From: Polytrichum commune | Taxonomy: Eukaryota; Streptophyta; Polytrichopsida; Polytrichales; Polytrichaceae | Direction: 5' to 3' | DNA length: 64,000 nt | Assembly: GCA_950295325.1 (NCBI GenBank) | Contig: OX485807.1 | Coordinates: forward strand, 50,376,440 to 50,440,439 | Shown here: positions 10,559 to 58,251 of the stretch, in pieces | How positions within the stretch are numbered: position 1 is the first letter of the stretch | Layout: each line of letters begins with the position of its first letter | Position numbers and translations under genes: made by a program | Notes under the pieces: model-generated | The model's database searches: none | The model's input: the letters and a program-made list of their open reading frames with translations, nothing else | What the model was told of the DNA's origin: nothing

Positions 10559-11290
10559 ATGAGTACGGGTGATGAGGCCGATGGCGTGCACGCCACTTCT
10601 AATTCCTTGAGCGAGCAAGCAGAGAACGACAAGAAACGGAAACGAGCAGCGAAATGGAGCCAGGAAGAATCCATCGCACTGCTCAAGAGTCTGAGGGATT
10701 TAGTGCAGGAGAGCGAAGGAGGGAAGCAGTGTGTCAAGGGCCCGGCCAAGTGGGAACGCATTTCTGAGGAGCTCGTTGGCCACGGCTACCAGAAAAGAGA
10801 GGCGACAAGTGTCGGCGAGAGGTGGGATAAAATTTGTCAAGGATACCTTAAGGTTGAAAAGCACTTGAGAGCCAGCGATAATTTCGCACAGGCTCTACGT
10901 GAGACCAGAAAAGAGTTCAAGTTCTTGCCTGCAGAGTACACACAGGAGTGGCACGCGTTGGCCGCTACGTGTGACCCCAGGCAAAAGAAGAAGCAGAGGA
11001 ATGGTGGAGCGGAATTAGCCATGGTGGAAAATACCGATGCTTTGCCATGTGATGTTAGTCCAGCGTCGGTCTCATTTGAAACCATCCCCCAGGCATTCCG
11101 TAAATTTATCAGGAGTGTGGAGTCCCTGCTATCTTGCAGCAGAGATGCAGCCAGTCCAAGCCAAAGATGTGACGAGACGGATGAACTAGGTGACATTGTG
11201 AGGTCTTTGCTTTCTATAGTCGAAGCGGTGAAGACGAATGCCAAATTCGAGAAGTCAGGTTCTCCAATCAGCAAATCTTACCTTTCCTAA
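10559..11290 (+). CDS. Trihelix (Myb/SANT-like) DNA-binding protein
   Basis: Single-exon frame of 243 aa starting MSTGDEADG. A basic run KKRKRAAK near residues 25-32 could be a nuclear signal. A Myb/SANT-like trihelix domain follows at about 32-115: it opens AKWSQEESIALLKSL, continues PAKWERISEELVGHGYQ, and has the typical SVGERWDKICQGYLKVEKHL third-helix region, followed by EFKFLPAEYTQEWHAL. This arrangement is that of Myb_DNA-bind_4 / GT-type plant transcription factors. The C-terminal third is unrecognised. The base composition is higher in GC than the flanks, and the long clean frame supports a real gene. The start is the first in-frame ATG; nothing clearly upstream argues for another. 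Confidence 0.85.
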   Translation: MSTGDEADGVHATSNSLSEQAENDKKRKRAAKWSQEESIALLKSLRDLVQESEGGKQCVKGPAKWERISEELVGHGYQKREATSVGERWDKICQGYLKVEKHLRASDNFAQALRETRKEFKFLPAEYTQEWHALAATCDPRQKKKQRNGGAELAMVENTDALPCDVSPASVSFETIPQAFRKFIRSVESLLSCSRDAASPSQRCDETDELGDIVRSLLSIVEAVKTNAKFEKSGSPISKSYLS

Positions 11291-37736: not shown

Positions 37737-38060
37737 CCCTAACATTACCAAACCCAATGGAGGTAATTGCGGCCCACTTACCGATGCCTGCCAGAGGCCT
37801 TGCATGCCACCAGACCCTCCGCAGCCGGGACCCGCCCTTGCCCGCAACCCGCCCTCCGCCGGCTTGGGCCTCAGTGGAACCGGGATGCTGCCAGGCTGGC
37901 TGGGCAGGCGCCACTCACCCACCGAGGCCACGGTGGAGCGCCACGCTGTCAGCTCCCGGCGCTCACTCACCTTCGAGGCCACATCATGGGATGTGGCCCC
38001 TGTTACAGTCACATGGCATGTGCTTCCATCATGGCCAGATGGAAACCATGGCCGGCATCT
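37737..38060. repeat. Left terminal region of the outer MULE
   Basis: GC-rich (unlike the flank), starting CCCTAACATTACCAAACCC. The first 22 bases or so match the inner MULE terminus with one difference, later sequence only by composition. The boundary on the right is a guess from the GC drop. Overlapping open frames on both strands here are not considered genes. Confidence 0.6.
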
Positions 38061-38589
38061 TCCCACCTCGGTGAAGGGATCTCCCTCTTCCATTTGAACG
38101 TTTAGGGTTTACGGTTTCTGTTGCCTCCATGCAGTGATGGCTGGTCTTTCTTTGTAACCTGCACGCTGCTTTCTCTGCCGCAGTGGAGTGCAACACTTCG
38201 ATTGCAACAATGATGCAGGTGCGGGATTGCGGGCAGGGTTAGGATCATCAGCTTCCTTTCCAACATGCTGGTTTAGGGTCAAGGTAAGTGACTGACCTCT
38301 TCATGTTTGTTTGCAAATGTCCAATACAACAGCTTTTCTGATCGATTGCAAGCTAATTGTTTCTTGCACACCTTGGATCATTCCCACGAACTATTAAGAA
38401 GGCAACAATGATGGATTCTTTAGGGTATTTCTTGCAACTGTCTATTGAAGTCATAGTTTTTGAATGATTGTAACATAGCGATTTGCCTTAGAACTTCCAT
38501 TGTTGCCGCACTACAGTCTCTTCTGATGGGCCTGAAACATTGATTCGCTAAGGGGTGGCTTCGTCTTTCTTTGTAATTCATTGCAACAT

Positions 38590-39300
38590 TCCATTCATGG
38601 TTCCCTCCTCTTTTACTGTAACATAATGATTAGTTGCACTATAGTTTTGTCTCATTCTGTGTGGGTTTAGGGTAATCCTGTCTCCCTCTTTGTGGGTTTA
38701 GGCTAATTCTTTGCAACAATCATTCAATCTTCCCTCCTCTTTTATTGTAACCTAATCACCTCCTTGCACTACACTCTTGTCTACTTCCTGCTTGGTTTAG
38801 AGCAATGATATGGTACAGTGTCATTATATTTTTCATCATTCTTTGCAATAGTCTTCTCAACCTTCCCTCATTTATTGTGACATAATCCTTACTTGCACCA
38901 CACTTCACTTCTTGTTTTCATGTTTCATCATTCTTTGCATTACTCTTCTCAACCTTGCCTCCTATTTTATTGTAACATAATCCTGGCTTACACCACAGTC
39001 CACTTCATGCCTGGTTTACAACATTCGATGACTAAAGCCTGATTGCATGTTTCATCATTTTTTGCAATAGTCTTTGATACCTTCCCTCCCCTTTTATTGT
39101 AGCATAATCCTTACTTGCCCTACAGTCCACTTCCTGCTTGGTATAGGGTTAAATTGCTTAGAAGTTTGAATGAGGGTTCCACGAGTGTCTGGGTTTCATG
39201 AGGGTTTCATGGGAAGTCTGAATTTGGGTTTCACGAGGGTTTCGGTTTCATGAGGGTTTCATGAGAACTCTGAATTTGGGTTTCACTAGGGTTCATGGCT
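38590..39300. repeat. Degenerate tandem repeats in the outer MULE leader
   Basis: From 38590 to 39140, roughly 110-120-bp degenerate units repeat TTCCCTCCTCTTTTATTGTA, ACATAATCC, TTGCACTACAGT and a CTTCCTGCTTGGTTTA box. From 39165 to 39300 shorter units repeat GGGTTTCATGAGGGTTTCA and CTGAATTTGGGTTTCAC. They sit between the left end and the accessory gene, presumably in its 5' non-coding region. Confidence 0.6.
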
Positions 39301-39711
39301 GAATTTGGGCAATAATGGTTGTAATTCCTGACTTGTAATTCCTGTCTTGTAATTTCTGTACTCTATCTCAGCAGGGCGAGGGCTTCAATTCCAGCACTTC
39401 ACCAACGCCCCTGCATTTTGGCGAACGTGCTTCGCCGTCTAACGACCACACCGCACAAGGTGGTTACAACAGGTGTGTGCCATCTGACAATCGTGCACGC
39501 TTGTAACATGGAAGCAAGTTCCGCTGGATTCGCGGCCTTTTTTTTCTCCCGGTTTCCTCCTCACTCGTGGGAGGCCACATACTTCTCTTATGTTTTGGGG
39601 TTTCTGGTTTTTCAGGTCCATGTGTTCTACTCACTTCAGTTCAATTCATCTAGTTTCAGACATTAGGGTTTAGGGTGTGTAGGTGGATGCGCTTGCAGAC
39701 AATGTCTGAGT

Positions 39712-40486
39712 ATGGCGGTTGGTGCGTGCCCTCCTCTGGAGGGCTTCAGCGACCCGCATCAGGGCACCTTGCGCCATATTCCATGTGCCGCAAACCCTAA
39801 TCCCTCCTCATTCCTCTTTGGGCCTCTGAGTGCCTTGTTCCTGGCCATAGACTCACAGTGCCGTTTGCAGGATATGGACGACAAGGTGGTCTACTACGTG
39901 AACAGGGATTCGCAGGGGTGGGTGGAGCAACACGTTAGGCGCCATGTCTACATCGAGTTGAAGTTGGAGTGTACTCGCAACCGCATTCGGAATGAACACA
40001 AAGGCCAAAGACGATTGGGTGTGCCTGTATTGAAGAGGATCCTTTCCAAGTAAACTGCGGCTGACAGATCACCGGTGTGGAGGCTGCCCCTGTGGACCAG
40101 TGAACTCTAGAGGGTTAAAGTGGCAACTCCCTGTGTATCCAAATTTGAAGACAACAAAACAGGGGAAGGATCTTAAATTGGCTTTGCAGCGCGGTGATGT
40201 GTGGGACAACCTGCAAGACGAAGAGATTTGGTTTAGTCTAAACCCTGAGCTCCTCGATGTCACGAAACCCCCCCCTGGAGCACGCGTGCAGGAGCGTTGG
40301 TTTATGGAGGCGACTCTGGAGACCTTGGCGGCCCAACCCGCACCAAGCACAGATTTCAGCCCTCAACAAATGCGGCTGCAAACACGGAGCAAAGCGGCAG
40401 TCCCTCCGCGGCAAAAAGCTGCCCCGCCCCTGCCTCCTGCTTATGTGGACATTCCCGATGACGACAGCGATGAGGTTCAAGCGCCC
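39712..40486 (+). pseudogene. MULE accessory gene of the outer element, 5' half (split by insertion)
   Basis: Starts MAVGACPPLEG, as the intact homologue at 42441 starts MAVG, and has the same ALFxAID block before MDDKVVYYVNRDSQGWV. Damage: a frameshift near 39995-40010, and a TGA replacing the second zinc-finger Cys codon (WVCLY, stop, RGSFPSKLRLTDHR). The frame then continues LPVYPNLKTTKQGKDL, WDNLQDEEIWFSLNPELLDV and PPPGARVQERWFMEA, parallel to the intact protein. It is cut at 40486 by the inner MULE; the reading frame resumes exactly at 50470. Confidence 0.85.
40478..40486. repeat. Target site duplication, left copy (9 bp)
   Basis: CAAGCGCCC immediately left of the inner MULE; identical 9 bp at 50461-50469. 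Nine bases is the typical Mutator target duplication. Joining the flanks with one copy restores the Glu-Val-Gln-Ala-Pro reading frame of the host gene. Confidence 0.93.
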
Positions 40487-40775
40487 CCCTAACATTACCC
40501 AACCCAATGGTCATAACTCCATTGCGGAGATCGAGGCGTTGCAGAGCTGTGACAGAGTTTTTTTCTTCCGGACCTCGACCCGCCCCGGGCAGAGCAATTG
40601 TGGGCACCGTCGGGCAGCCCCTGCCGCCACCGTGGACTTCGCTCCAGCTGGCACCGGTTGCCCCCACCGCCACGCTGGCACCGGTTGCCCCCAACGCCTC
40701 GCTGGCACCGGTTGCCACGCTGGACTAAACGCCAACCTGTTCGCCGGCAGCTCCACGTGGACGCGCCCATCCCTC
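40487..40775 (+). repeat. Left terminal inverted repeat of the inner MULE
   Basis: Begins CCCTAACATTACCCAACCCA. It matches 50172-50460 in reverse complement along 289 bp with two differences seen (GCGG/GAGG near 40525; GTGACA/GCGACA near 40550). It contains three direct GCTGGCACCGGTTGCC motifs starting near 40647, 40674 and 40701 (27-bp spacing), candidates for transposase binding. Confidence 0.93.
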
Positions 40776-42440
40776 GAGGGATGGAAGATGCCTTTGCTCC
40801 TCGGGTGAGCCATGGCCATGGCCAGCCACCTTCATTCTCTGTAACCTGGTGCTGCAATGGAAACTCGAAATTTTTGCTGCAAAATCGATTGTGTTTAGGG
40901 AATTGTTGCCTCACCATGGCTAGTGGGAGTGAAGGGGTTGCGTTTAGGCGTTAGATCGTACCAAAACTGCTGCTTGGAGAAGAGCATGTTCCAATCAAGG
41001 TGAGTTTAGTCGCTTGCAATGGAAAACCTCCGCATCCTTCTAATTGGTACTTCTGTGTGTACATTCTCATCGTCAATGTGCTTATGGCTTGATGTAATGT
41101 TTTCTGTGCAGGCGGGAGCGACGACTACCATTTCGCCGCATCAGATTCGGGGCTGGTTTAAGGGAGCAAAAGTCCACCGCAGGTGGTTACAGCAAGCGAT
41201 CCACATCAGGGCATCACGTGCCATATTGTAACATGTACCTCCTATCTTTTTGCTGCTCCTTTCTCTTGTTTAGCTTCTCTATATGGCAGTGGTTTGTGTG
41301 TGTTTAGGGTTGTTAGGCAGTGTTTAACTTTGAGTTTCTACGCATAGGGGTGAGGGTTCGGTGAGCCATGGGTTGTCTCTGCGCCGGGTTTTAGTATGCA
41401 TCGAATCTGGTCGTTTTGCGGCACTTTCATTTTCGTTTTTTGCGCATAGGGGTGAGGGTTCGGTGAGCCATGGGTTGTCTCTGCGCCGGGTTTTATTAGG
41501 AAGCGCATCTGGTCGTTTTGGGTTTAGTTTTGTTTTGTGCGCGATCGCTTGAGGGTTGGGTGAGCCATGGGTTCTCTCTGCGCCGGGTTTTAGTAGGCAG
41601 CTCATCTGGTCGTTTTGCGGTTTGGGGTTTGGTGCGGCATACGCATACGGTTTGCGGTTTGGTGCGGCATGGGTTGTCGCTGTCCCCACGATGTTTAGGG
41701 TGGTCTTTTGCATGCCGCTGGATCAAGCAAATGTACTAAAATGTTTCTCTCCGATCTCAGAATTCAAGTGCAAAAATTCCAGTCATTTTATGTCGGCTTG
41801 TCAGTGCTTGCGACTCTGCAACGTCCAGAGGTTGCACATCATGAGGTCCAGTGCATAGTTTGATGCTCTCCGTTGTTGTGCTCTGCTCTGTGTGGCCGAA
41901 TGCTAGTTGCAAAATTCCTGAGCTTCCAACTTAGAGGCCTACTGTGCTGGTAGTTTAGGGTTTGGGTGGTGGTTTCTGCGAATGCTGCGTTTGGAGGAGT
42001 GCTGGTAGTTGGGGAGGTTTAGTTGGGATTCTGAAGGTGGTGGGCAAGGACAGGAGTTTCTTGAAGCAGGTTGGAGGGTTCTGCCAAGGGGATCAGCTCT
42101 TCAACTTGCATTATGGTAGTTGGGAGCCTGAGATTGGTCAGGGTTCTGAAGGCTGCAGAGAAGGTCAGGAGTTTGTGCCCGGCAGAATATTCAGGCGATG
42201 GTGCATGCAACCGAGTTGGCGTGAAGGCAGAAGAGTTCCCTCCCAGGATAGTATACATGTTTATGGTTCTTTAGGGGCAGCATACACCTCTCTGTATGTT
42301 TAGGGTCCTCACATGAAGGCAAGGGAATGTGGATATGCAAGGACTACTGCTGGTTTTAGTAATGTTTGTAGGCATGTTTAGTTAGAGCATACAAGTGGTA
42401 GATCAAATTTCCGTTGACGCATATTGTAAAGTTGTTGGCC
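40776..42440. promoter_or_regulatory. Leader region of the MULE accessory gene, with tandem repeats
   Basis: 1.7 kb between the terminal repeat and the accessory gene. It holds about three copies of a 100-bp repeat (41343-41640) built on GAGCCATGGGTTGTCTCTGC and GCATCTGGTCGTTTTG. Several good splice-like sites (for example TTTCTGTGCAG|GCGGG at about 41111) suggest 5' non-coding exons. A block near 41195-41230 (CATCAGGGCATC...GCCATATT) is echoed in the outer element at about 39757-39782. Promoter function is inferred from position. Confidence 0.45.
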
Positions 42441-45400
42441 ATGGCAGTTGGGTCAATTGCTCCCGATAAACACTCCTATCAGCAAGGGCGCAGCTTCATG
42501 ATTCTTCCCCGCGTCTCAAACTGCCACACCCCTTCCTGGAATTCTACGGCCCAGTATGCACTGTTTCGGGCAATTGACCTGCATTGTGCTGTGCAGACTA
42601 TGGCAGCCGAGGGAGAGGCGCCGGTTCCCGAAGAAGACGAGGTCACATATTTCGTGAACAGAGATTCTGCAGGTTGGGTGCAGCAGACTGTGAGGAGGCG
42701 CGTGTACATCGAGCTGAAGCTGGAATGTACGCGCAATCGTTGTCGGGATGGGCAGAAGTCGAGAGACAGTTGGTTGTGTGTGTACTGCAAGTCTTCTTTC
42801 CCAAGCAAGTTGCGCTTGACGGATCATAGGGTGGGGGGTTGCCATTGCGGACCCGTTGACGCAACTGGCGCAAAGTTGGAGCTCCCGGTCTACCCCAACC
42901 TCAAAACAGCGAAGCAAGGTAAAGACTTGAAAGCAGCAATCGAACGAGGTGAGCGTTCGGTTTGGGACAATTTGCTGGACAATTCAATGTGGCTCGAGCT
43001 AAACCCGGAGCTAATGGAGGTAACCTACCCTCCCGCTGGAGCGAGAGTGCAGGTGCGGCGATTCATGGAGCGCTCAATCGACCGATTGAGAGCTTCACAT
43101 CGGTGGCCGGAGGGTGGGTCGCAATCGGCCCCTAGACCAGATCGGTCTCCCATACGACGTACCCCACCACCCCCCCCTGAAGAGGTTGTGGACCTAGGGG
43201 ATGACGGCACCGATGAGGCTGAACCTCCACTTTCTCGCCCCAGGAAACGAAGTCATGCACGGATGGATGAGGGCCATCGGCCTTTCACCTCCACCCGCCA
43301 GTGGAAGTCTGTGCCAAGGAGACACCACCCGACTCCGCCTCCACAACCTGCCCAAGCTGCACCTGCACCGCCTCCCCACCCCATTAGTGTGAAGCCCATC
43401 GCTTCTCGCAGCCCAACCCCAGAGAGGAGGGTCATCGTGGCTCCTCCTTCGCCCGTTCCACAGCCTGCCCCTACGCCACCTGTGACCCCTGTCCCCCCCA
43501 TGCAGGCCTCTAGAGGTGAGCTTGATATTGCTACGGCGTTGAGGAAGGAGCGACAAATCGCGTATGTTACAGCCGCAGCTGCAGCCCGTGGATCTGTGAG
43601 GATGGACGGGCCCAAGCCCGCTTTGAGGCCACTAATTCAACCTCCTGGCCTCTTTCATTTAATGCCATGTGGCTTGCTGAAATTTGATCTTGACAACGGC
43701 GACTACCATGCGTTTCAGGAGGAGGTTGCGGGTTGGAGGTCTGATCCGGCGTGTATGGACAGGCTCTTTGCTGCCTTTGGTAGATTTTCTTACCCCAAGC
43801 ATCAGGTAAACTTCTCCTAACCTGGCTCATTTCCTTCAATAAGTATGCGTCGTCAACCGGTTTTGGATGTTGTAGATGGAAATTTGTAACCTGAAATTTG
43901 TGCATCTAAGGATTTGCTGGACTTCTCTGGATTTAGTCGTCTATGTGGATGGCAGACAATAACGGACCAGCAGGCTGAAGTGAATTTAAGTCAGTAACAT
44001 GTATTGGATTAGGCATAATATGTTTGTAACCTGGGTTCTTTGTGTTCACGCAGGCAAAACCACAGGTTACGGCTGCAATCACCAAGATTGTCGTGGCAGC
44101 CATGAGCAAGGTGGATGAGGAGGCCACGCTGCACTCCGAGATCGAAGCCCTTTGCCACTATGTCCAGCATATAGTTCAATCACGGGAGATCATGAAGCAA
44201 CGCAAACAGTGGGAGGAAGACCGCCAGGCTAAGATTAACGACATGATTTCAACTGCCATGAAAGCTTGGGACATGGAGCACTACCCTCGTTTGCTGGAAG
44301 CCACATGGGGATGGCACCCTTTCTATGCCGCATTGATTTCTAACCCTCTGAGCGATAACTTCGTTCCCTCCTACCCTTTGTACCATTCAGTAGCTGAAGG
44401 TTTAGGAGTGCATGCGTCCCTCTTGCAGCAATCTCATGTTGAAAGAGCTTATCCTGTGCCATGGTCCGTGCTCCTCTTTCGTTGTTTCTTGAAAGAGCAT
44501 AGCGAGGTGCCCCCTCCGATCTCGCACCCACATAGGGGTGCCTCTGTGGACAACGTTGTGGGGTGGTTGAAGCTCGCCGAAGAAACCGAAGGAGAAGGTG
44601 CACGTGCGTGGAAAAAAGCCAAAGGTTACTTGAGAGGTGAGGGTTTTCTTGTGTTTGCGGGTGCCAGGGGAGGGGATTCGAAACAAGAGTGGGTTGCAGC
44701 CGTGGAAGCTGCTTGGATGGAGTTGAAACAACCCACTTCAGAATGGTGGGCAGATTTACGTTTGTGGTGCAACTCGATACAATTCAGAGCACTTATGGAC
44801 ATGGCGTTTCACTCCAAGTCCGAGTGGCTGAACGCTTGGGTGATTCGTGATCGGCCAAAGAGTCCTTCGGCCCCACTGGCATGTTACGATATGTGGTTAC
44901 AGCATCGGGAGGACTTGGACATTGGCTATGTTCTTGCGGAACCAGGTATTTGCACACATTTCTGCATTGTAACATATGGGTGCTCCGCCTTGAACATGCA
45001 TTAACCACTTGCATGCGTGCACTCCTTGGCAGATGTCATGGTCCCCTCGATGGAGCGTAATGAGTACCTGGAGGAGCTTCGCAGCATTGCCGACAACATT
45101 GTGAGAGAGCGTTTGGAGCAATCAGAGATGCTACCAACATCACATTCTATACCGGCAACCGATGTTACATCTTGCGACGTGCCCCAGCCATGTCCTCCAA
45201 GCCCTTGTAGCATAAGCACTGTTGGCAAGGCGGTAACACCAGATGACGTCCAACGCCCAGTGGAACCACCTGCGGCTGAAGACGCAAGGCACTCTCCCCG
45301 CTCACACGGAGTGGACGATGTTGTCCCGACATTTGACATCCCCATGACGCAGGGAAAGAGCCTGGAGGACTTGCCGAGCCAACTCGACTTTGAGTGGCAA

Positions 45401-45607
45401 GACTCGGTGTACCCCAACTCCACACCTGCCCATGTTACGGCACGCAGTCTTGGCGGAGAGTTGGACGTTGTTGGCACTTCCCGGCCCACCACGGAACACA
45501 ACAACGTGGGTGTAGACACATTTCTGCAGGTTTCCCAGATTGCCCGCGAGGCCGTTGTGGATGCCACACAGCAGCCACCCTCCCCCGTTCCACATTCGCA
45601 GATTTAG
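42441..45607 (+). CDS. MULE accessory protein with C2HC-type zinc finger (three exons, 943 aa)
   Basis: Exons 42441-43805, 44054-44945 and 45033-45607 join in phases 0 and 1 with GT-AG sites. The start is the ATG of MAVGSIAP, because the outer homologue starts MAVG at the same distance and shares ALFxAID before the later ATG (42600, the alternative). Residues about 113-136 hold C-x2-C-x12-H-x4-C-x-C (LCVYCKSSFPSKLRLTDHR), a likely zinc finger. A Pro-rich linker covers about 225-385. Exon 2 encodes a helical, Trp-rich domain (ATWGWHPFYAAL, WSVLLFRCFLKE, WWADLRLWCNS) that I do not recognise. The C-terminus is acidic with a conserved DIPMTQGKSLEDL box. Convergent with the transposase, as mudrB is with mudrA in MuDR, but I see no likeness to known mudrB sequence features. 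A role in transposition or anti-silencing is inference. Confidence 0.85.
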
Positions 45608-45980
45608 GCTTAGACTAGTGTAACAATCGCTGGAAGAGACTTAGGGCATGCATGTATGTATTCCAGGTAGCGGTGGATGTTCACCTACGATGTGTAAAAG
45701 TTGTAACATGGAATAACATTGCCCGCTTAGATTCAGCCAGTCCCAATCATAGAAGTGATGTTTGTAACAAAAGCATGTGATGTGACACCTGAACTAACCC
45801 TTTAATGCGACACCTGAACTAATGTGCACTTAACATGTATGGATTTCCAACTTGCATATTCATCGACTCATGTGACTCAACAAGCCATGCACAACAAGTC
45901 ATGCACGAATGTAAATGTGTTTATTCCGCATGCATTTGAGTGAAACTGAACATATTGCCAAGGTAACATGCAACAGGACA
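45608..45980. other. Convergent 3' region between accessory and small genes
   Basis: About 370 bp of non-coding sequence that must carry the 3' ends of genes on both strands. TGTAAC motifs recur (45622, 45702, 45763), one 14 bases after the accessory stop codon. No AATAAA-like signal stands out. Confidence 0.4.
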
Positions 45981-46352
45981 CTATGGGGCCCAAACAGGTC
46001 TGTAAACCTTAATCGGGCGTTGATAAGGCTTTAGCGGGCCTTGTGGGGGGGTTGGGACGATTGGAGATGGTGTAACCAGCTGCCGCACAACCTCTGCATG
46101 TCGGCGTCGGAGTCGAGATGTCTGCGCCGGGGAGAGCAACTTTGGAACGGCACCCGCTGTGGATGTCAAGGCTGATTCTGGTCGCTTGGAGTTGTCCACA
46201 CGCTGCTCGTCGGTGAAACGCCCAGGCGTCGTTGGGGGCGTGAAGAATTCGTCCTCGCTTGAACTGTCTTCAACGGGGCCGATAGCATCTGGACATCTAC
46301 AAAGCCACTTCCACACAGACGCGCCAACCCGCGCGACGTCAAAACGGGCCAT
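45981..46352 (-). CDS. Small MULE accessory protein (123 aa)
   Basis: Single-exon minus-strand frame: MARFDVARVGASVWKWLCRC at the N-terminus, then an acidic SSSEDEFFTPPTTPGRF box, a basic RLRRRHAEVVRQLV segment, and a C-terminus ending PIKVYRPVWAP. The outer element has a homologue at 53459-53838 in which the VWKWxCRCPDA, DEEFYTPPTTPPR, ARLRRRHAQAVRQLI and QRPVKVYRPSWAP blocks are preserved. Conservation of protein blocks between two diverged elements is good evidence of real coding. The family is unknown. The gene lies between accessory gene and transposase, on the transposase strand, 276 bp beyond the transposase stop. Confidence 0.8.
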   Translation of the reverse strand: MARFDVARVGASVWKWLCRCPDAIGPVEDSSSEDEFFTPPTTPGRFTDEQRVDNSKRPESALTSTAGAVPKLLSPAQTSRLRRRHAEVVRQLVTPSPIVPTPPQGPLKPYQRPIKVYRPVWAP

Positions 46353-46406
46353 GGATCGGGGAAATGGGGTTTGAGGCGCGCTAAGCGTGGAGGGAGATGC
46401 AGAAGA

Positions 46407-46447
46407 GTGCTAATGCTGATGCTAATGCTAATGCTAATGCTAATGCA
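46407..46447. repeat. (TGCTAA)n microsatellite
   Basis: About six hexamer units of TGCTAA with one TGCTGA, lying just upstream of the small minus-strand gene. Confidence 0.95.
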
Positions 46448-46628
46448 ACTTGTTGCCTAACCATATGGACCTAATGCGCAAGAATGGAACCCGTTTCCTT
46501 GGCAGCAGGTGGTGACCTTATATACCCTAAATGGGGCAACGTCAGCCCACATGTGGGAAGTGTCGTAACATGCAGGGCATGGTGTAACATGCACAGGTTA
46601 CAAAACGTGCTTGACCGTGACTAGTTAT

Positions 46629-49409
46629 TTACCGACGCCGCTGGAGAAAGTCCTTCATACGCTTGAGGGACATGTTGCTGCCATCATCGTTGGGCAAGAA
46701 ATGCAAGTCTACTTGGGAGGGCTCCACCAACCCATGCTTGATCTGAGCAAGCAATGTTTGTTGCTTCCCCTTTACAACGTGGAGGTCTGCCAGGAGGTGC
46801 TTGAGCAGGAAGGTATGACCCTTGGCCACCTCCACAAAATCTGCTGCGAGATGGCGAACATGATGTTCGATGTCCTCGTCAGATGGTGTGGCACGTTGGC
46901 TGCCATTAGCACGATTCGGTGTGGAGGTGGGCATTGCTGATCCGGTGTCGTAACAATCATCCAGAGAATGCACAATAGGGTCCAACATGTTACCACGGCC
47001 GCCCTCGGTTGTGCCTGCAAGGGATCCACAGTAACGTGTAATGGTTCCTTCTGCTAGGCTAGGATGGAGCATCATCAGTACTTTAATCTGATGTTTGCAA
47101 ATGTTTCCCTTCAGTGCCCACACGCAGTCACAGCAACCCCATTCACAGTCAGGGTTGTACACCTTGTAGCATTTAGCTACGTTCGTCTTGGAGGTTACAA
47201 TGGCGGGGCCGTCATCCGCAATGGGGAGAGTGACACAACTGTCCGGAATTTCTCTCGCTTTGAGAACGGCATTGATAACGAATTGCTCCTGTTTCAAGTT
47301 GGGGACGAACCCATGTTGTTTCCTCATCGCTTGGTACCAATAGTGGGAGAGGATTTCCTCCGTCAACTCGTATATGACCCAGTCTAAACGACGTCCATGG
47401 GCTCTTCCTTTTGAGGCGCGCAAGGTGGCTTTAAGGTTTGAGTGGTAGCTTTCGATTGCCGCGTTTGTGTCCTGCCCAGCATAAGGCAGGTTACGATGCC
47501 CCACAACCCACATATGGGTCTTGTCTGCCCATTGTTTGTTGAAATACACCCAAAAATTGCTCACAATGGGGAAGCTATCCATAAGAGCGTTTAGTTGGCG
47601 AAGAGCCCAAGGCCCCATTTGATCTCCCTGGGGGCACTTTGTGTCGTACATAATACGACCCAATCCCTTGAGCACACCAGCCCGGATAGCATGGTCTTTA
47701 ATTTTTGCCACCGCCTGTTTCAACCATGCACGACGGACATGCCAAAGGCAAAGAAAGACTTTCACTCCGGGCCACACCGACTGCAACCCTCCGATCTCGG
47801 CCTGCGCACAATCTGTGATGAAAGCATTCGGCATCCAATCTTCTTGCACTGACGCCAATTTCGTGGCGAGCGCCCTCATCCATGGTTCAAGATCGGGTTG
47901 CTTGGAACTAGAAGTAACAATGTATGCCACGGGAACTCCGTTCAGCCAATCATCAAACACCATCAAGGTGTAGAGCGGGAACTGCAACAAAAAGGATAAA
48001 TAATAACATTTAGAGACTGGGGAATATTAGACGTTACATATAACAGTGATGTAACATGGAGTATGGCAAAGCAAGTACATCTGACGGTCTGTAACACGAT
48101 ATTCCATGGAACATGATAGCAGCAACAAACCTTGTTCTCATTTGTTGCAAAAGTGGCATCAATTGAGACAGCTTTTTTATGTCCGTGCTTCAGCATCATA
48201 TCTTGTTGCCACGCTGTTTGGATGCCTATCGTGAAAGGAATGTTGTCGCGTGTAATAGCACTGCGAACATGTACGCCAGATTCTTTGTAGTAGAACACGA
48301 GGTGGGGATGTTCTTGCACCCACATGCGAACAGATGTCGCATCATTGTTGTCGCGTTTGTAGGTCTCAATTGCCAAGCGGCCAGCCACGTTACGGATGTC
48401 TTGGTCACAAATGAATAGGTCCCTTGTGAGCTCCTCCCCCCTTTCACACACTTCCAGGAATCGTTTCCTATGTTTTGCCATTATTTGCGGGATGGACAAA
48501 CCCAAACGTAGATGAGTCATGATGAATTCCCGAACATGCGGTGACAGATGGCTAGAGAATCTGCTTTTATGGCCAGTCTTTGTCACACCATGGCAGAAGA
48601 TCCCCTCGGAGTTGACATGGTGCATCTGGTGGTACGTTACTTCTGCGACCGAAGGCTCAAGGTACAGTCTCTTCACAACAAAACCGCATTGGCAACCCCT
48701 TCGTTGCCCAAATCCCCGCATCCTGGCAGAAGTGCGAGGACCTGAGTGACCCTTTCCATTTGGAACAAATTTGCCTTTGGAGTCGAGCTTTCGTTTCTTC
48801 TGGTACATTTCGTTTGTAACAACTGGTATGTGCGAGGCATTGTCATTTGGCCCATACTGGCAGTGATACCTGAGGCAGACAACAAGTGTGGCAAGCAAGA
48901 GTCAGGTAACAGACGCAACATTCAAGTTATAATGTTGTAACATTGCAACATGCAAAATGAAAATGGAAGTGCATGTTACAAACACACCTGATGACAGTAG
49001 AGTAGCTGTTCCAACGGGGGAACGCTAGTTTCCCTTCTTGGTTCGATGGAGTGCCTTGGCAAACAAATTTGCAGGGAGCATCAGGGCGGCCCTCCTCACC
49101 TTTCAGGAAATCCTCGACTCTTGACCAAGGTATGTAAGCAACCGAAACTGGCACATGAGTCATGGGGTCAGTCCTCCTCCCTTTCAGCCGGGTCTGCCTT
49201 GCCCACCATAGGTCAATGTGCATGAAGGTTCCCGCTTGGGGTCTCTGGACTAGACTGAGGAGCCGTTCAAACTCCCCTTTGTGTGCCTCCCGGTATATAC
49301 ACTCATAAGAGGGATCCGCGGGCAACGGACTGGGAAGTGTGTGGTCAGTGGCATGGTCTCCATCTCGGGTAACATCTACTTCAGTTGGCAATTCAGGAGA
49401 GGATCCCAT
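46629..49409 (-). CDS. MULE transposase (DDE, SWIM zinc finger; three exons, 837 aa)
   Basis: Exons 49409-48988, 48869-48131 and 47981-46629 (minus) join in frame across 118- and 149-bp GT-AG introns. The chosen start is the ATG of MGSSPELP. Residues 1-250 hold a Cys/His-bearing N-terminal region like FAR1/MULE DNA-binding domains. The catalytic core shows Asp378 (SIDATF), Asp444 (AFITDCAQAE), the C465-x2-H468 motif (LCLWHVRRAW) and Glu564 (NAAIESYHSNLK), the usual MULE DDE pattern. SWIM finger C671-x-C673-x8-C682-x-H684 (CDCVWALKGNICKH) follows. The Lys/Arg-rich C-terminus ends MKDFLQRRR. The enzyme should cut and join the element ends in the nucleus. The frame is complete with no stops. Confidence 0.93.
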
Positions 49410-50171
49410 TGACGTTGTCTTTTGGAGCACTCTCAGCACCTACACCTGGTCGTGCATGTAACAACGTTCTAAACCCTGGAAGCAATGAGGAGAACCCTAA
49501 ACCAAACACAAGGTGGGGAGTGACCAGATAATGGATAGGTTACAGTCAAAGAGTTGCGATGTTGTACTGTAGATCTAATAACATATATGAAAAACACAAT
49601 GAGTAAGGGCGATTGTGAGCAGCATGGGCGATGAGGGCGCGTTTGTCAAAGATTTGACAAACATGCGTTCATTACATCATTGTTGGGTTTACATCATTGT
49701 TGGGTTGACATCAGAACATGCAAGAGAGGAGAAATTTGAGTTAGGTTCACATCAGGTAATGCAAGAGCGGAGCAGATCTACATCATTACATCATTGTTGG
49801 GTTGGGTTCACATCAGTACATGGAAGAAAGGAGCAGATCTGCATTGTTGATTGCAGATCTGATTCAAGAGAGGTCGCATCACTACATTCAAGACAAACAA
49901 GTGCTACAGAAATGCAGATTCAGGAGTTCATGGGCATGTTACGAATAATCAAAAGCATAAAACCAAAGGAACCCTGCAAAGAAACGATGAATGAGGTGAT
50001 GTTGTCCTAAACCCATCGCCGCATCATTGCTCAGCAAAAAATGCAGTCTCTAGAGAATGAGCAGATTACCCACAAGCATCAGGGGGGAGGCGTTGAGTCT
50101 GTTTTTGAAAATACGCGCTCCCCGAGGGCGGTTTCCTAAACCAGTAGGGATGGGGGTGTAGGCCATGGCGG
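49410..50171. promoter_or_regulatory. Transposase upstream region
   Basis: 760 bp between the transposase start and the right terminal repeat. It contains degenerate direct repeats (about 49675-49870) made of ACATCATTGTTGGGTT, CACATCAG and GGAGCAGATCTGCATTG-like blocks. Presumed promoter from position; no TATA box chosen. Confidence 0.4.
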
Positions 50172-50460
50172 GAGGGATGGGCGCGTCCACGTGGAGCTGC
50201 CGGCGAACAGGTTGGCGTTTAGTCCAGCGTGGCAACCGGTGCCAGCGAGGCGTTGGGGGCAACCGGTGCCAGCGTGGCGGTGGGGGCAACCGGTGCCAGC
50301 TGGAGCGAAGTCCACGGTGGCGGCAGGGGCTGCCCGACGGTGCCCACAATTGCTCTGCCCGGGGCGGGTCGAGGTCCGGAAGAAAAAAACTCTGTCGCAG
50401 CTCTGCAACGCCTCGATCTCCTCAATGGAGTTATGACCATTGGGTTGGGTAATGTTAGGG
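50172..50460 (-). repeat. Right terminal inverted repeat of the inner MULE
   Basis: Reverse complement of 40487-40775 with two mismatches seen. It ends GGGTAATGTTAGGG, directly followed by the target duplication. Long frames read through it on both strands and are mirror images of those in the left repeat; they are not genes. Confidence 0.93.
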
Positions 50461-50469
50461 CAAGCGCCC
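50461..50469. repeat. Target site duplication, right copy (9 bp)
   Basis: CAAGCGCCC, identical to 40478-40486. Confidence 0.93.
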
Positions 50470-52894
50470 CCTCCCCCTCCCCGGCCGAACAAGCGGAGGC
50501 ATTTGGAAATGGACGGTAGCCACCGCCCCTCCTATTCGAGCCGACAGTTCAGAGCCAAGCATCGAAAACATACTGTTGGTGGAGATGGACGCCCACCAAA
50601 CCCTCCACGACCTCCACAACCTTCGGCTGCTGGCTTTCGGGTGCCTCCACCCCACCCCATTCGAGTTACACCGCTACAGAGTCGCCACCCCTCGCCAGAG
50701 AGGGTTGCCATTTTGCCGCCTCCCATGGATGTGCCGCACGAAGAGCCTGCGCCGCCCCCACCTACTTCACCCTCTTCGCATCCGCATGTCCAGCCCGATG
50801 CGCCACCGCCACCTGTTACAACTGAGACCCCAAGAGAGGAGCAGGATTTGGCGTTGGGTCTTCGAAAGGAGCGTCAAGCATTCTACCTCAAAGCCGCAAG
50901 TGCAGCACGCGGGACCGTGACAATGGACGTCCCAAAACCACCTTTGAGGCCCTCAATCCAACCCTCTCCCTTGTTTTATTTGATTTCTTGTGGGTTGCTG
51001 CAGTTTGATTTGAAGCGCGGCAAATATGAAGACTTCGAGGCTCAGATTCAGGAATGGAAATCCGCACGGAATTTCATGGACAGGTTGTTTGCCGCATACG
51101 GCAGATTTCATTCTGCATCACATCAGGTAACGACTATATGTTCTTTCCATGCTTCCGTGCTCTCCTTGAAGTTCTTTGAAATTCTTTGAAATTTCATATA
51201 TTATGCATATACTGTCTGTTTGGTCACGTAACATGGTTAAATAGGTGTTGCTGAAGTCGTAACATGTGTTCAGTGATGTTACTGTCGTCGTAACAACACC
51301 TGTATTTGTGGATGCAGGCCAAAGCAGGAGTTATACCGCCAATCACGCAAGCAGTGGTGGGGGTCGTCAACAAGATAGATGATGCCGCCACCGTTGTGGA
51401 CGTTGAGATTCAGGCTCTAACCACTTACGTTCAACACATCTTCGTCATGCGGGATGTGGTGAAGGAACGAAAGCAATGGGAGGACAACCGCCAAAAGAAG
51501 GTTAGCGAAGCCATTGCCAAAGCCATGAAACAGTGGGATGACAAGCATTACCCGTGCTTGTTACAAGCAACTTGGGGATGGCACCCTTTCTATTCATCTT
51601 TCCTTGCCAATCCTCTATGCGTCAACTTCATTCCCACATACCCTTTGTCTCATTCAGCTGTGGAGGGTTGGGATGCGCACGAGGTCGTATTGCAACAAAC
51701 CCAGGTGAAGCGGGTGTATCCGGTGCCTTGGTCCGTCCTGTTGCTTCGATGTTTTCTTAAGTATTACAGCCTCTTGCCGCCTATACTGTTACACCCTCAG
51801 AATGGCCTCACTGGAGCCAACATCACAAAATGGCTGAAGGTCGCGCAAGAATCTGATGGAGAAGGCCCGCGTACGTGGCAACAGGCCAAGTCGTACTTGA
51901 AAGAAGAAGGCTTCGTGTTGTATGCGGGGGCCCGGCCAGTGGACTCGCATGCGCAGTGGGTTACTGATGTAGAAGGTGCTTGGAGGGATTTAAGAAATCC
52001 TAGTCGTCAATGGTGGGCAGAGTTGCGGCATTGGTGCAACGCAACTCAGTTTAGAGTTGTTCAAGATATGGCGAACCATGACAAGCAGATGTGGATCCAA
52101 GCCTGGGTGATTCGGGATCCTCCCAGTGAGCCTGCACCCTCACTTGCACGTTACGAACGGTGGTTGCAAATTCGAGAGGACATGGACATTGGATATGTCC
52201 TTGCCAACCCAGGTAACATTCTGCCCTTTCAGTCGTAACATGATGCCTTGCCCGTAACAAGTCCATGGAGGATGGGCCGATTATAACAGTGCCCATGTGT
52301 GTATTGTTTCACAGATGTTATGGTCCCTGCGCCGGAACCAGCGGAGTTTTTGTACGACCTGAGGGCCGTTGCAGAAAATGTCAGCAGAGAACGTTGTGAA
52401 CAGTGGGAAGTACATCCTCCAAAAGCCGCCCAACGCGAAATGGATGCGGATGTTCGTGAGGTCGAGGTTACGAATGCCAACAACTCCGACAACGTTTGCA
52501 CCCACGGCACACCACAAGCTGCGGAGGTTGCGCACCCCCTAGTGGATTCTGATTCTGGACAGAACGCGCGGAACTCCCCCTCCTCAGATCCAGGCGTGAA
52601 TGTTGGATCTGCATGGCACATACCTATGACTCAAGAGAGATCGTTGCAGGACTTGCAAGTCAATTGGATTTGGACTGGCCAGAGTCGGTGACACCTTCTC
52701 CGACGCCCTCGCTTGCCGCAACTCGCAATTTGGGGGAGGAACTTGAAGCGGTCGGGTCATCTCAGGTTGTCGACACAGCCGTAGTAATGCCCGTGGACGC
52801 ATTTGCAGAAGTATCACTGATTGCACAAGAGGTTGTCACGGATGCTAGTGGTAGTCGTCCAGAGCTCATGGAGGAGCCGTTACATGCATTGTAG
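50470..52894 (+). pseudogene. MULE accessory gene of the outer element, 3' half
   Basis: Continues the gene interrupted at 40486. The rest of exon 1 runs to 51126 (ends FHSASHQ|GTAACG), exon 2 is 51318-52212 and exon 3 begins at 52315, with the same phases (0, 1) as the intact homologue. Conserved blocks include RGTVTMDVPKPPLRPSIQP, ATWGWHPFYSSF, YPVPWSVLLLRCFLK, WWAELRHWCNATQFR and DIGYVLANP. A one-base frameshift at about 52650-52657 breaks the DIPMTQ...L box from its continuation ASQLDLDW. With the damage in the 5' half this gene is dead. Confidence 0.87.
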
Positions 52895-53458
52895 TCTAGA
52901 TTACATGTTACATACATGTTACAAGTTGAATAATTGTTAATGCATTCATGGACTTGCAGGGAAACCCTATTTGGGTTTGCAATACTGATAGGAAGACCGC
53001 AAAGAACTGAATCCATTTAGCTTGAGAATGATTGTCGTCACTCAAAACTGTTGTAGTGCACACAGGGATGAACTGCGAACTCTGTAACAAGTGAAACACC
53101 TGTAACATGTGTCCAATGTGTTTTCATAATTGCAGAATGAGTGCATGTGTGTTTAGCATTGGTTTTGGTGTTGGTTTATGGCTATGCACTGCTAGATACG
53201 CGCTAGTTACATGCTAGTTATGGTTAGCTAACCATGCGCAAGTTAGATACATGTCACTAGTTTACACAATCGCGCCCAACAAATTTTGTGTTAACGACAT
53301 TGGAGGAGTGTTGGTACAAATGTTATGTGCAATGCAAAGAATAGAAGACCCTCGTTACATATGCAACACTAGAAAGAAAACCCACAAAAATCAAAATTGT
53401 ATCATTCATTTCAAAACGTTGCTCGCAATGTAACATGACATAGTCCCTGAAATGCAAA
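52895..53458. other. 3' non-coding region in the outer MULE
   Basis: No gene. Counterpart of 45608-45980, again rich in GTTACA/TGTAAC motifs (52903, 52917, 53082, 53102, 53428). Confidence 0.5.
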
Positions 53459-53838
53459 CTATGGAGCCCAACTCGGCCTATATACCTTCACTGGTCGTTG
53501 GTATGCCAACAACGGGCCGTGTGGAGAAGGCGTGACGGCAGGAGGTGGGGTTATGAGCTGCCGGACCGCCTGAGCATGTCGTCGCCTCAGTCGGGCGCTC
53601 TGCACTGGTGATAGTGGCCCAAACACCTGAAGTTTGTGGAACATGGAGTCAGCAGTGCAGGCGGGAACATTGGCCGTGGGGTGCTCATCGGCAACGCGCG
53701 GAGGAGTTGTTGGCGGCGTGTAGAACTCCTCATCGCTCGAAATGTCGTGCTCTGGTCCAATGGCATCAGGGCATCAGGGCATCTGCAAAACCATTTCCAA
53801 ACAGCTGCACTTATGCGGGCTAAGTGAAGGGGCGCCAT
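53459..53838 (-). pseudogene. Small MULE accessory gene of the outer element, frameshifted
   Basis: Homologue of 45981-46352. It starts MAPLHLARISAAVWKWFCRC and is thrown out of frame by an 8-bp tandem duplication (GCATCAGG repeated, about 53764-53782). Past this the correct frame continues IGPEHDISSDEEFYTPPTTP and later YQRPVKVYRPSWAP. Otherwise well preserved. Confidence 0.8.
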
Positions 53839-54012
53839 TGGGAGAGTGAAACAACATAGACACACTCCATGATGGTCACGCCCTTTATATAGGTAATGTG
53901 GGAAGTACTTGACGCACGTGGGAAAGGCTCACACATGCGCAGAGTGCTGTAACATGGGCCCCTCGCTCGTAACAAGTGCATGTTACAAAACAAGTCTGCG
54001 AACATTATCTGT

Positions 54013-54214
54013 CTACCTGTGACGCTCCAGGAAGTCCTTCCTTCGCTTCAGAGACATGTTACAGCCATCCTCGTTGGGGCTGAAATGCAGTTCCACTTGC
54101 GATGGCTCCACCAAGCCATGTTTCATTTGAGCCAATAGGGTTTGTTGTTTTCCCCGGACGATGTGGAAGTCGGCTAGAAGGTGTTTTAGCAAGAAAGTAT
54201 TGCCTCTGGCGGAC
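54013..54214 (-). pseudogene. Outer MULE transposase, C-terminal remnant
   Basis: The last 66 codons or so: NTFLLKHLLADFHIVRGKQ, LAQMKHGLVEPSQVELHF and MSLKRRKDFLERHR, closely matching the C-terminus of the intact transposase (46629 onward). The frame is still open. Everything upstream (catalytic core, N-terminus, right terminus of the element) is missing, with the break near 54214. Confidence 0.85.
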
Positions 54215-54228
54215 AACACAGCTATGTG

Positions 54229-54233
54229 AGCGT

Positions 54234-55482: not shown

Positions 55483-58251
55483 CTAGGAAGTAGAATGTGT
55501 CAAAAGATCCCCTTCGAGGATGAGTTTGACTTCATTGAAGCTAAAGGTCGGGGTGTGAATGAACAAATTCACTTCAGGATCCAAATTAGAAACCTTGATG
55601 AAGATGTAATAGAGATGCTTACAATTCAGATAAGGATTTCGTTTGCGGCCGAACTTGGAAATCATATCCAAGAAGAATGCGCAATTGCACTCTGGAAGAG
55701 AACTGACTGTCATTTGGTAGATGGGGGATTGCGGTTCTGCCTTGGACTGCAGAGTGATGATGCAACCAAATCCCGGTTGAGGGATCATTGTTAACTTCAG
55801 AACAGTACCATGCATAGCTTTAGCAGAGGCAACCATCTGCCTCTGCTTTGCCGAAGGTGCGCTGGTGGATCGTCGAACAACCTTGGACAATCTTGTCGGA
55901 GGGATGAAGTCTGGGTTGTCTGGAATACGGATTCCAGACATATCCAGTGGGGGAGCGGAATTGGTGAAGAGTCGAGTTGGTGTGATGCGTTCCTTTGGTG
56001 GGAGTTGAAAACCTGCGTTTTCAAGCGCGAAGATCTCTGAACGGGTGAGGTTGGTCCCAATCTTGACAGGCCAAATTGGGAGAATAGGAGGTTTCTGATC
56101 ATCAGCAGAGAACGGTATGACCCATTTCCGACGAGAGCCCTTTACACAACGCTCGATGTCATCTGGGCAAAAGACGAATTCCATTCGCTTCTCCGCTTGG
56201 AGTGTGTAATGATGCCACATACCGGTGTAGGTCGGTGCAGGGACGCTCTTATTATTGGTGATGATTCTTGCGGTGCACTTCTTCTTCGTGCCAGCATGAT
56301 TAGCCCAACAAGACTTTCCTGAAGTATGGGGTATGCGGGCAATATGCCAAAGAGAGACATCTACTTTAGTTTCTTGTACGGCAGTGACACGCTGAAAACC
56401 AATTCCTGCTGGAGAAGGCACTTGAACCTCTTGAACACACGGGGAAGACTCCTCAATGATAGTAGATAGTGATACAGGTTGAGATCGAGTGATGCGCTTC
56501 GCGGGGGGAGGGCGAGAGAAGTTGACGCTATCGGGGCGGTGGGTCTCGCCATCATCGCCAATTGGAGTGTCGGGTCTTCGCTTCTGCGATCCAAACACCT
56601 CGGCGCCTTCAAGGTGTGGATCGCGAGTGCAAAATTCTTCCCCACCAGGCATGTCAAGCAACACCTTCTGCAACACTGTGGGGTCGCCAGTACGCTGAGC
56701 TCGACGTTGAGCTCCCCTAAACTTGAGTTCTTCTTTGCTTGGACCATCACCGCCAACTCCACCTTAAAAGAATTGGAAGTATGCAACAACTTGTAAGAAG
56801 GCGCGAATGTAGTCGTCCACGGTAGCAACGTAGAGGTCTCCACCCTTGTTGCCGGAGGCTTGAAGCCACTTGTTGTGGACGGACTCCGCAAGATTGCACG
56901 ACGGCATCTCGGCCAACTGGTCTGGGGTCAATACCTTTTCCTGATTGAAAAAATGGAGTATTAGAGCGAGCACAGAAAGATGAAAATAATGAAAGGAAAA
57001 AACAAGAAGGAAAGATAAGGGAGATGTACCAGTTCCATGAAACCACCCCATTGAAGGTAGCGGAAGTGCCAAAAAGCAAGCCATAGCTGGAGGTGCTTGA
57101 GACCGTCTTCACTTGTACAATTCGACGAAGACCACCAAGCCTTGATAGCTAGGTACCTAGTCTCGGCCTCTTCCATAGACGACGCATTCCGATATTGAAG
57201 GCAAAGGTGTCTATGTTGGTCTTGTAACTCATGTTTAATATACGATTTTGTATGTTTCTCGAGCGATTGTTTCCAATGAAAATAACAGGTGCGCTCACGG
57301 CCCTCCAGTGGAACTTTAGGATCTCCTGAACCATACACAATTCGCACAGCGTTCCAATTGGCTTGGGCACTGTCTGCCATGAAGCCAATGAAGTTTGGAT
57401 GTGGGACACCGTGCCGGGCCATGACTTGGTTGAGGTTCTGCCAGAAAAGAACTTGAGCATCCTTGTCCTCGGATTGGAAGTCGCAGCAAGCGATGGTCAT
57501 GATGCGCTGGTAGGTACCGTCGTATACGTGGCAGGCCATGGTGGTCCACTTGGCGACGCGTTTGACATGGTCAGACATCATCCAAGCATGCTCGAGATCC
57601 CCACCAGGTTGCATACGCCTAACCAAGTCGACCCCACTACCAGGGCCGACCTCAGACATCTTGAAGACGAAAACTTTGTCCTTCTCGTCACCCTGGCCCG
57701 GGAATTGATTACGTTGGACATAGGCCCAGTTGCTGACACCTCGAAGTTTGGCGATTCCATCCATAACCCCTAACCTACGTAAGTATTTGAAATTGGTAAC
57801 CTTGTTACGGAGGTGGGGGGAATTCAACTCCTTGCAACGATCAAAAACTGGTTCAAGTTCTTCCAACGAGAGAAGGTGATGAGGATCACTATCATTGCGG
57901 AGGAGGAACTCACCCACAAGGTCCTTGCTGGCTTCGAGGACTATTTTGCTATGAGTGGCTTGGGGCGTCCGCTCGACGTGCTCCTCGATGAGGGCGTCGA
58001 TGCGCTGTTGGCTATCTCTACAATTGCCAACCTTGACGGGATGATGATGGTTGCCCAGATGAATACAAGCACGCTGAGTGGTGCCTTTGCCGTGGACGTA
58101 GAAGATTTTGGCATGACATGGTGCAATGCATTTGGGAGGCTCCTTACATATCCGGCATATGAGAGTGGATCCCAAAGGCAAGGGTCCACCAACGGGGAAG
58201 GGCTCCTTGGTGAATCCGTCGAAATCAGTATCATTGACCGAGGAAGGGGTT
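55483..58251 (-). pseudogene. Second MULE-type transposase, one in-frame stop
   Basis: Exon A (about 58251-57030, minus) and exon B (56940-55483) are joined by an 89-bp GT-AG intron in phase 0. Exon A has a Cys/His N-terminal region (LICRICKEPPKCIAPCH, ACIHLGNHHHP), then HVYDGTYQRIMTIACCDF, FIGFMADSAQANWNAV and RTCYFHWKQSLEKHTK. Exon B opens EKVLTPDQ and has CNLAESVHNKWLQ, giving the D, D, E set of MULE transposases. A SWIM-like finger (CNCAFF... NCKHLYYIF) lies near the C-terminus. A TAA at 56764-56766 interrupts exon B; the frame on both sides is open. No ATG fits the start of exon A, so an upstream exon is probably missing. Not closely similar to the transposase at 46629-49409; a different MULE lineage. 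Confidence 0.82.

Follow-up and report, generated by a model that had tools for sequence, protein, structure and literature searches.

A native second gene and a repeated nine-base word in a MULE family of Polytrichum commune

Does a long gene lying beside the transposase gene in a MULE of Polytrichum commune belong to the element, and what might its product do there? The question is raised by a stretch of 64,000 nucleotides (contig OX485807.1 of assembly GCA_950295325.1, positions 50,376,440 to 50,440,439), hereafter the window, in which a complete MULE with two genes lies inside an older, broken one (Table 1).

The nested elements and the accessory protein

The TIR arms of the inner element are 298 nt long and 98% complementary, its 9-bp TSD is perfect and within the MULE range of 8–11 bp, and the transposase domain PF10551 scores 35 bits, above the Pfam cut-off of 27.6. 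With a transposase domain, a TSD of this length and long TIRs, it is a MULE. A further copy in the genome, L010, is 99.4% identical to it and complete, with its own 9-bp TSD (CACTTTTAG). The point at which the inner element was inserted is exon 1 of the older relative’s copy of the same second gene, here called the accessory gene.

In the inner element this gene (42441–45607, + strand) comprises three exons encoding 943 aa, separated by two GT-AG introns (43806–44053 and 44946–45032). A local splice-site scan gave two open gene models, of 943 and 939 aa, and the start MAVG was found again in several other copies. As the transposase gene lies on the − strand, the two genes are convergent, in agreement with the preliminary description of the locus. 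The same description had noted a common exon structure and conserved blocks in the inner and outer elements, which was borne out: the intron positions of the older homologue match those of the inner gene, the matched pieces are 44–51% identical, and the identity in exon 2 is 55%. The dN/dS proposed there as a check on the two genes came to 0.21 in exon 2 (dS 1.60, dN 0.33). The older copy is broken, since the frame changes in exons 1 and 3, and its exon 1 is additionally split by the inner MULE. The right end of the older MULE was not found in a search allowing up to 6 mismatches.

Table 1. Coordinates of the two nested MULEs and their parts within the window
Feature	Position	Strand	Remarks
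Older MULE, broken, host of the inner one	37737..54230		left end 37737
Older accessory exon 1, first part	39712..40486	+	frame broken
TSD, left	40478..40486		CAAGCGCCC; from sequence
Inner MULE, complete, two genes	40487..50460		from TIRs, 9-bp TSD and sister copy L010
Left TIR	40487..40784	+
Stretch containing all 26 inner-element GTAACA sites	41228..49942
Accessory exon 1	42441..43805	+	C2HC finger block (residues 65–215), basic proline-rich linker, conserved C part
Accessory exon 2	44054..44945	+	helical Trp-rich domain
Accessory exon 3	45033..45607	+	acidic tail, conserved IPMTQ...LPSQLDF.W block
Region between accessory and transposase genes	45608..46628		6 GTAACA sites, 5.9 per kb
MULE transposase gene (exons inside span)	46629..49439	-	PF10551, E 2e-8
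Right TIR	50163..50460	-
TSD, right	50461..50469		CAAGCGCCC; from sequence
Older accessory exon 1, second part	50470..51126	+
Older accessory exon 2	51318..52212	+
Older accessory exon 3	52315..52894	+	frame broken

Judged from its sequence, the layout of the accessory protein appears transcription-factor-like, with one finger: the finger block and linker are basic and the tail is acidic (pI of the exon 3 product, 4.4). The ligands C113, C116, H129 and C134 occupy invariant columns in an alignment of 68 sequences (A4), and 15 of the 24 Trp residues fall in exon 2, which upholds both the zinc finger and the Trp-rich domain of the preliminary description. Residues 76–175 are among the most conserved (mean pairwise identity of 0.77–0.88 in 25-residue windows). 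The predicted structure of the N-terminal block has short strands followed by a helix at the finger (pLDDT 79, pTM 0.77), and the exon 2 domain, for which structure prediction had been suggested, yielded a helical model (pLDDT 87, pTM 0.73).

No Pfam family reached the cut-off with the whole accessory protein (best E 0.041), and the best value for eight exon 1 sequences was 0.19; 11 exon 2 sequences had no match in NCBIfam. In the PDB, the single protein sequence gave nothing at E ≤ 1, and profiles gave best values of 0.066 and 0.2. The protein database contains 121 relatives of exon 2, with no Pfam domain among the 120 matches listed, and at least 100 of exon 1 (8000 candidates scored), likewise with no Pfam domain among the matches listed. 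No named-domain relative of the helical Trp-rich domain was detected in the libraries searched, and with respect to these libraries the protein constitutes a new family lacking named domains. A description of it was not found in the open-licence papers searched.

Distribution, descent and selection of the accessory gene

Scanning of the genome (408 Mb, 64 contigs) gave at least 142 PF10551 matches (150 of 271 candidates scored). The family was sampled as 20 members with transposase frames of 432–501 aa and a profile pattern like that of the inner element’s transposase; chosen by frame length, the sample is biased to long frames. The C part of their transposases is 80–100% identical to the inner one, and the element end GGTAATGTTAGGG is present in 19, the remaining member (L009) being cut short. 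Of the 20 members, 19 carry the accessory gene, with position and orientation unchanged; because these members were found through the transposase, free-standing accessory copies would escape the sample. The gene was absent from L023 in the stretch read, and its close similarity to L025 is limited to what follows exon 3. Only exons 2 and 3 are present in L022, and the first 170 residues of the protein are without a match in L016. Many copies are degraded: single matches revealed stops in L013, L014, L015, L016, L017, L020, L021, L022, L024 and L027, and the matches are split in L010, L011, L019 and others. Two members, L012 and L021 (C4:38.97–38.98 Mb), lie tail to tail with 11 bp between them (GGCAAGAGAGG).

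Exon 2 is under purifying selection, with dN/dS of 0.18–0.31 against the inner copy (excluding the near-identical L009 and L010, and L022 with saturated dS); these and the following ratios were obtained by the Nei-Gojobori method and are rough, many dS values being above 1. Where measurable, dN/dS was 0.13–0.41 in exon 1 and 0.15–0.54 in exon 3, and the transposase gave 0.07–0.24 in its C part and 0.25–0.89 in its N piece. Exon 2 has a dN of 0.15–0.38 versus 0.05–0.13 in the transposase C part (both without L009 and L010), and the transposase N piece is likewise fast-evolving. The groupings in the trees of exon 2 and of the transposase largely coincide, but there is one clear exception: L014 (C4:1607050–1617040) is placed with L026 by its transposase and in the inner copy’s group by its exon 2, both forks having support of 100/99. 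This conflict points to gene exchange inside the family.

Since 19 of the 20 members carry the gene, the trees largely agree and the exon 2 dN/dS is well below 1, the earlier proposal that the protein is a native partner of this MULE family, rather than a captured host fragment, is supported; the gene is native, conserved and selected. That the two elements captured a host fragment separately is close to refuted. Gene capture is described as frequent in MULEs (PMC6446971), and no named family of Pfam or NCBIfam matched the protein; however, separate capture is at odds with the constant position in 19 of 20 members, the matching introns, the selection and the largely concordant trees. No host gene family occurring mostly outside MULEs was seen among the copies, which were sampled via the transposase.

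The word YGTAACATG in the DNA of the family

One word, YGTAACATG, recurs throughout the DNA of the family, a new feature that was absent from the preliminary description. GTAACA was counted 26 times in the inner MULE and 24 times in the outer one, compared with 14 times in the remaining 47.5 kb of the window, and the word is about tenfold denser in the family elements than in the window’s flanks. Dinucleotide shuffles gave 3.6 sites for the inner element and 1.8 for the right part of the outer one (19 observed). The left part has 5 versus 1.0, a count which the largest shuffle also reached. The flanks were not enriched by the same measure (left, 13 versus 25.7; right, 1 versus 3.4). Neither TIR of the inner element contains GTAACA.

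ATGTTAC was the most over-represented noncoding 7-mer (191 versus 16.1 in 19 sequences, without L009 and L010). In 18 copies, TGTAACA occurred 165 times in noncoding DNA versus 19.3, and its single-base variants within the GTAAC core were near or below expectation. It should be noted that such pooled counts are not independent, because the copies share ancestry. The word is spelt by 249 noncoding sites in the 18 copies, in both orientations, with T (66%) or C (24%) preceding the core and T (76%) and G (61%) following it. Taken one by one, 13 of the 21 sequences, among which are two near-duplicate pairs, had ATGTTAC as their top noncoding 7-mer, and it was in the top seven in all the others except L023, where enrichment was not found.

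The exons are enriched as well. The word exceeded the mean of synonymous shuffling in all six exon pieces and every single shuffle in five of them; in exon 1 the 12 sites (versus 6.7) remained below the shuffle maximum of 14. In the inner exons this approach placed GTAACA first among 2080 six-mers (14 versus 5.0); it was also first in the pooled copies, and third in the pool without the inner copy. Exon sites fall at 5–12 different positions per piece and differ among copies; two positions account for 35 of the 43 sites in the transposase N piece. The 18 copies have 7.0 sites per kb in the introns of the accessory gene and 6.0 in the DNA separating the two genes, whereas transposase introns have 4.1 and the 5′ flank of the transposase 1.2; the scarcity at the left end was judged from the inner element only. 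The word is not only present, it is maintained: only 13–15% of the intergenic DNA aligns between the inner and outer elements, and the unaligned parts hold all 6 inner and all 8 outer sites. With close copies this DNA aligns in full, as expected.

Four other MULE loci, read over 8 kb each, contained 3, 1, 2 and 3 sites, none exceeding the expected 2.4–4.4, and an accessory gene was not seen in any of them. A sister MULE group, L049–L051 (G000), has repeated words of its own, CAATACCCATCG and GGAATTGTATCACTGTT, which in L049 stand in tandem arrays flanking the transposase on both sides; the accessory gene was not seen within 8 kb in this group. In our family, 24 of about 250 noncoding sites lie inside tandem arrays, which take up 9.4 of 59.9 kb. 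The array most clearly like those of VANDALs is in L025 (5003–5287), located after accessory exon 3 and composed of 9.8 repeats of a 29-bp unit with ATGTTACA.

Possible readers of the word and known systems

With slightly less than even confidence, we regard the accessory protein as a YGTAACATG-reading regulator that would keep its own family active in a VANC-like manner. The gene product would be a native, element-specific DNA-binding regulator, whose conserved N-terminal block with its one C2HC zinc finger may recognise the word that the elements retain densely in introns, in intergenic DNA and likewise in exons. Chromatin or transcription could then be acted on by the helical Trp-rich domain and the acidic tail, and binding at many sites across the family might keep expression going in spite of silencing by the host, in the manner of VANC in VANDALs. 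We infer both the binding of the word by this protein and its anti-silencing or self-activating effect. This reading is preferred because a selected finger protein and a family-wide word resemble VANC and its targets; its weakest point is the link of the word to the accessory protein rather than to the transposase. More tentatively, such VANC-type self-recognition may have evolved independently here, with a zinc-finger protein, its helical domain lacking detected kin, reading YGTAACATG and exempting the family from silencing. If true, this would be a second MULE anti-silencing system next to VANC, with another layout and another word, and would point to repeated origins of word-addressed escape from silencing in transposons.

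VANC of the Arabidopsis VANDAL MULEs is, in the accounts cited, likewise a second protein encoded by a MULE (PMC5735166, PMC10398659), and the VANC21 word YAGTATTAY is reported from introns, intergenic and terminal noncoding regions (PMC5735166). Both this word and YGTAACATG have nine bases and have accumulated in the introns and intergenic DNA of their own families. The differences are that coding DNA lacks the words in the VANC case, whereas exons are also enriched here; that the tandem organisation of VANC words is replaced here by sites mostly outside arrays; and that our word is much the same across all sampled subfamilies. The likeness to VANC lies in a second protein encoded by the MULE and in the accumulated word, and membership is not claimed. 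Second genes opposite to the transposase gene are also described for maize MuDR (mudrB, encoding MURB; PMC6446971, PMC9168764), which we compare by gene arrangement and from description only, and for the Abermu MULEs of grasses (ORFR; PMC9168764), again compared by description and not by sequence. ORFR is reported to be under purifying selection and yet to evolve faster than the transposase gene, as exon 2 does relative to the transposase C part. However, its reported Ka/Ks of 0.39–0.56 is higher than the ratios found here, and distant ORFRs are described as lacking mutual similarity (PMC9168764), whereas one gene is common to all copies carrying it in our family.

The transposase stays a candidate reader of the word because the sister MULEs L049–L051 bear different repeated words without an accessory gene having been seen in their 8 kb. 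The accessory protein would then aid insertion, as is said of MURB for MuDR, a reading we consider unlikely. It would agree with the reported reduction of methylation at TIRs by MURA itself (PMC10398659) and with a C-x-C...H-x2-H stretch of the transposase, noticed by eye, which might itself form a finger; but the inner TIRs lack the word, and the transposase 5′ flank has 1.2 sites per kb versus 7.0 in accessory introns. A role of the accessory protein in transposition, in which its binding to the word would bring the element together in a TNPA-like assembly and not act against silencing, is in our view distinctly unlikely. The same observations as for the regulator (19 of 20 members, ATGTTAC at 191 versus 16.1, the invariant finger) would support it, but the sites are internal, away from the ends of the element. 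Maize Spm is a CACTA element with TnpA sites near its ends. Its TnpA, encoded by the element, is described as activating its own element in correlation with demethylation (PMC10398659). By contrast, sites do not cluster at the ends here: the inner TIRs have none, and the transposase 5′ flank has 1.2 per kb versus 6–7 per kb inside. With no sites in the TIRs and few near the transposase end, a regulatory role fits better than end-binding.

Finally, the word might be independent of both element proteins, as a host-factor site or a persisting ancestral sequence, with the accessory protein doing something else. This would suit the relatedness of the copies and the occurrence of some exon sites at positions common to many of them, but we rate it as very unlikely, given that sites remain dense where inner and outer DNA does not align, that exon positions differ among copies and that the flanks and the four other MULE loci are not enriched.

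Elsewhere in the window, two long ORFs of 397 and 406 aa (55483–58181, − strand), in which no Pfam family exceeded the cut-off, look like part of another repeated element; much the same ORFs adjoin a MULE in L050 (5455–6669 and 6933–8000). An ORF of 243 aa at 10559–11290 (+ strand) has a Myb/SANT-like domain (PF13837, E 1e-8).
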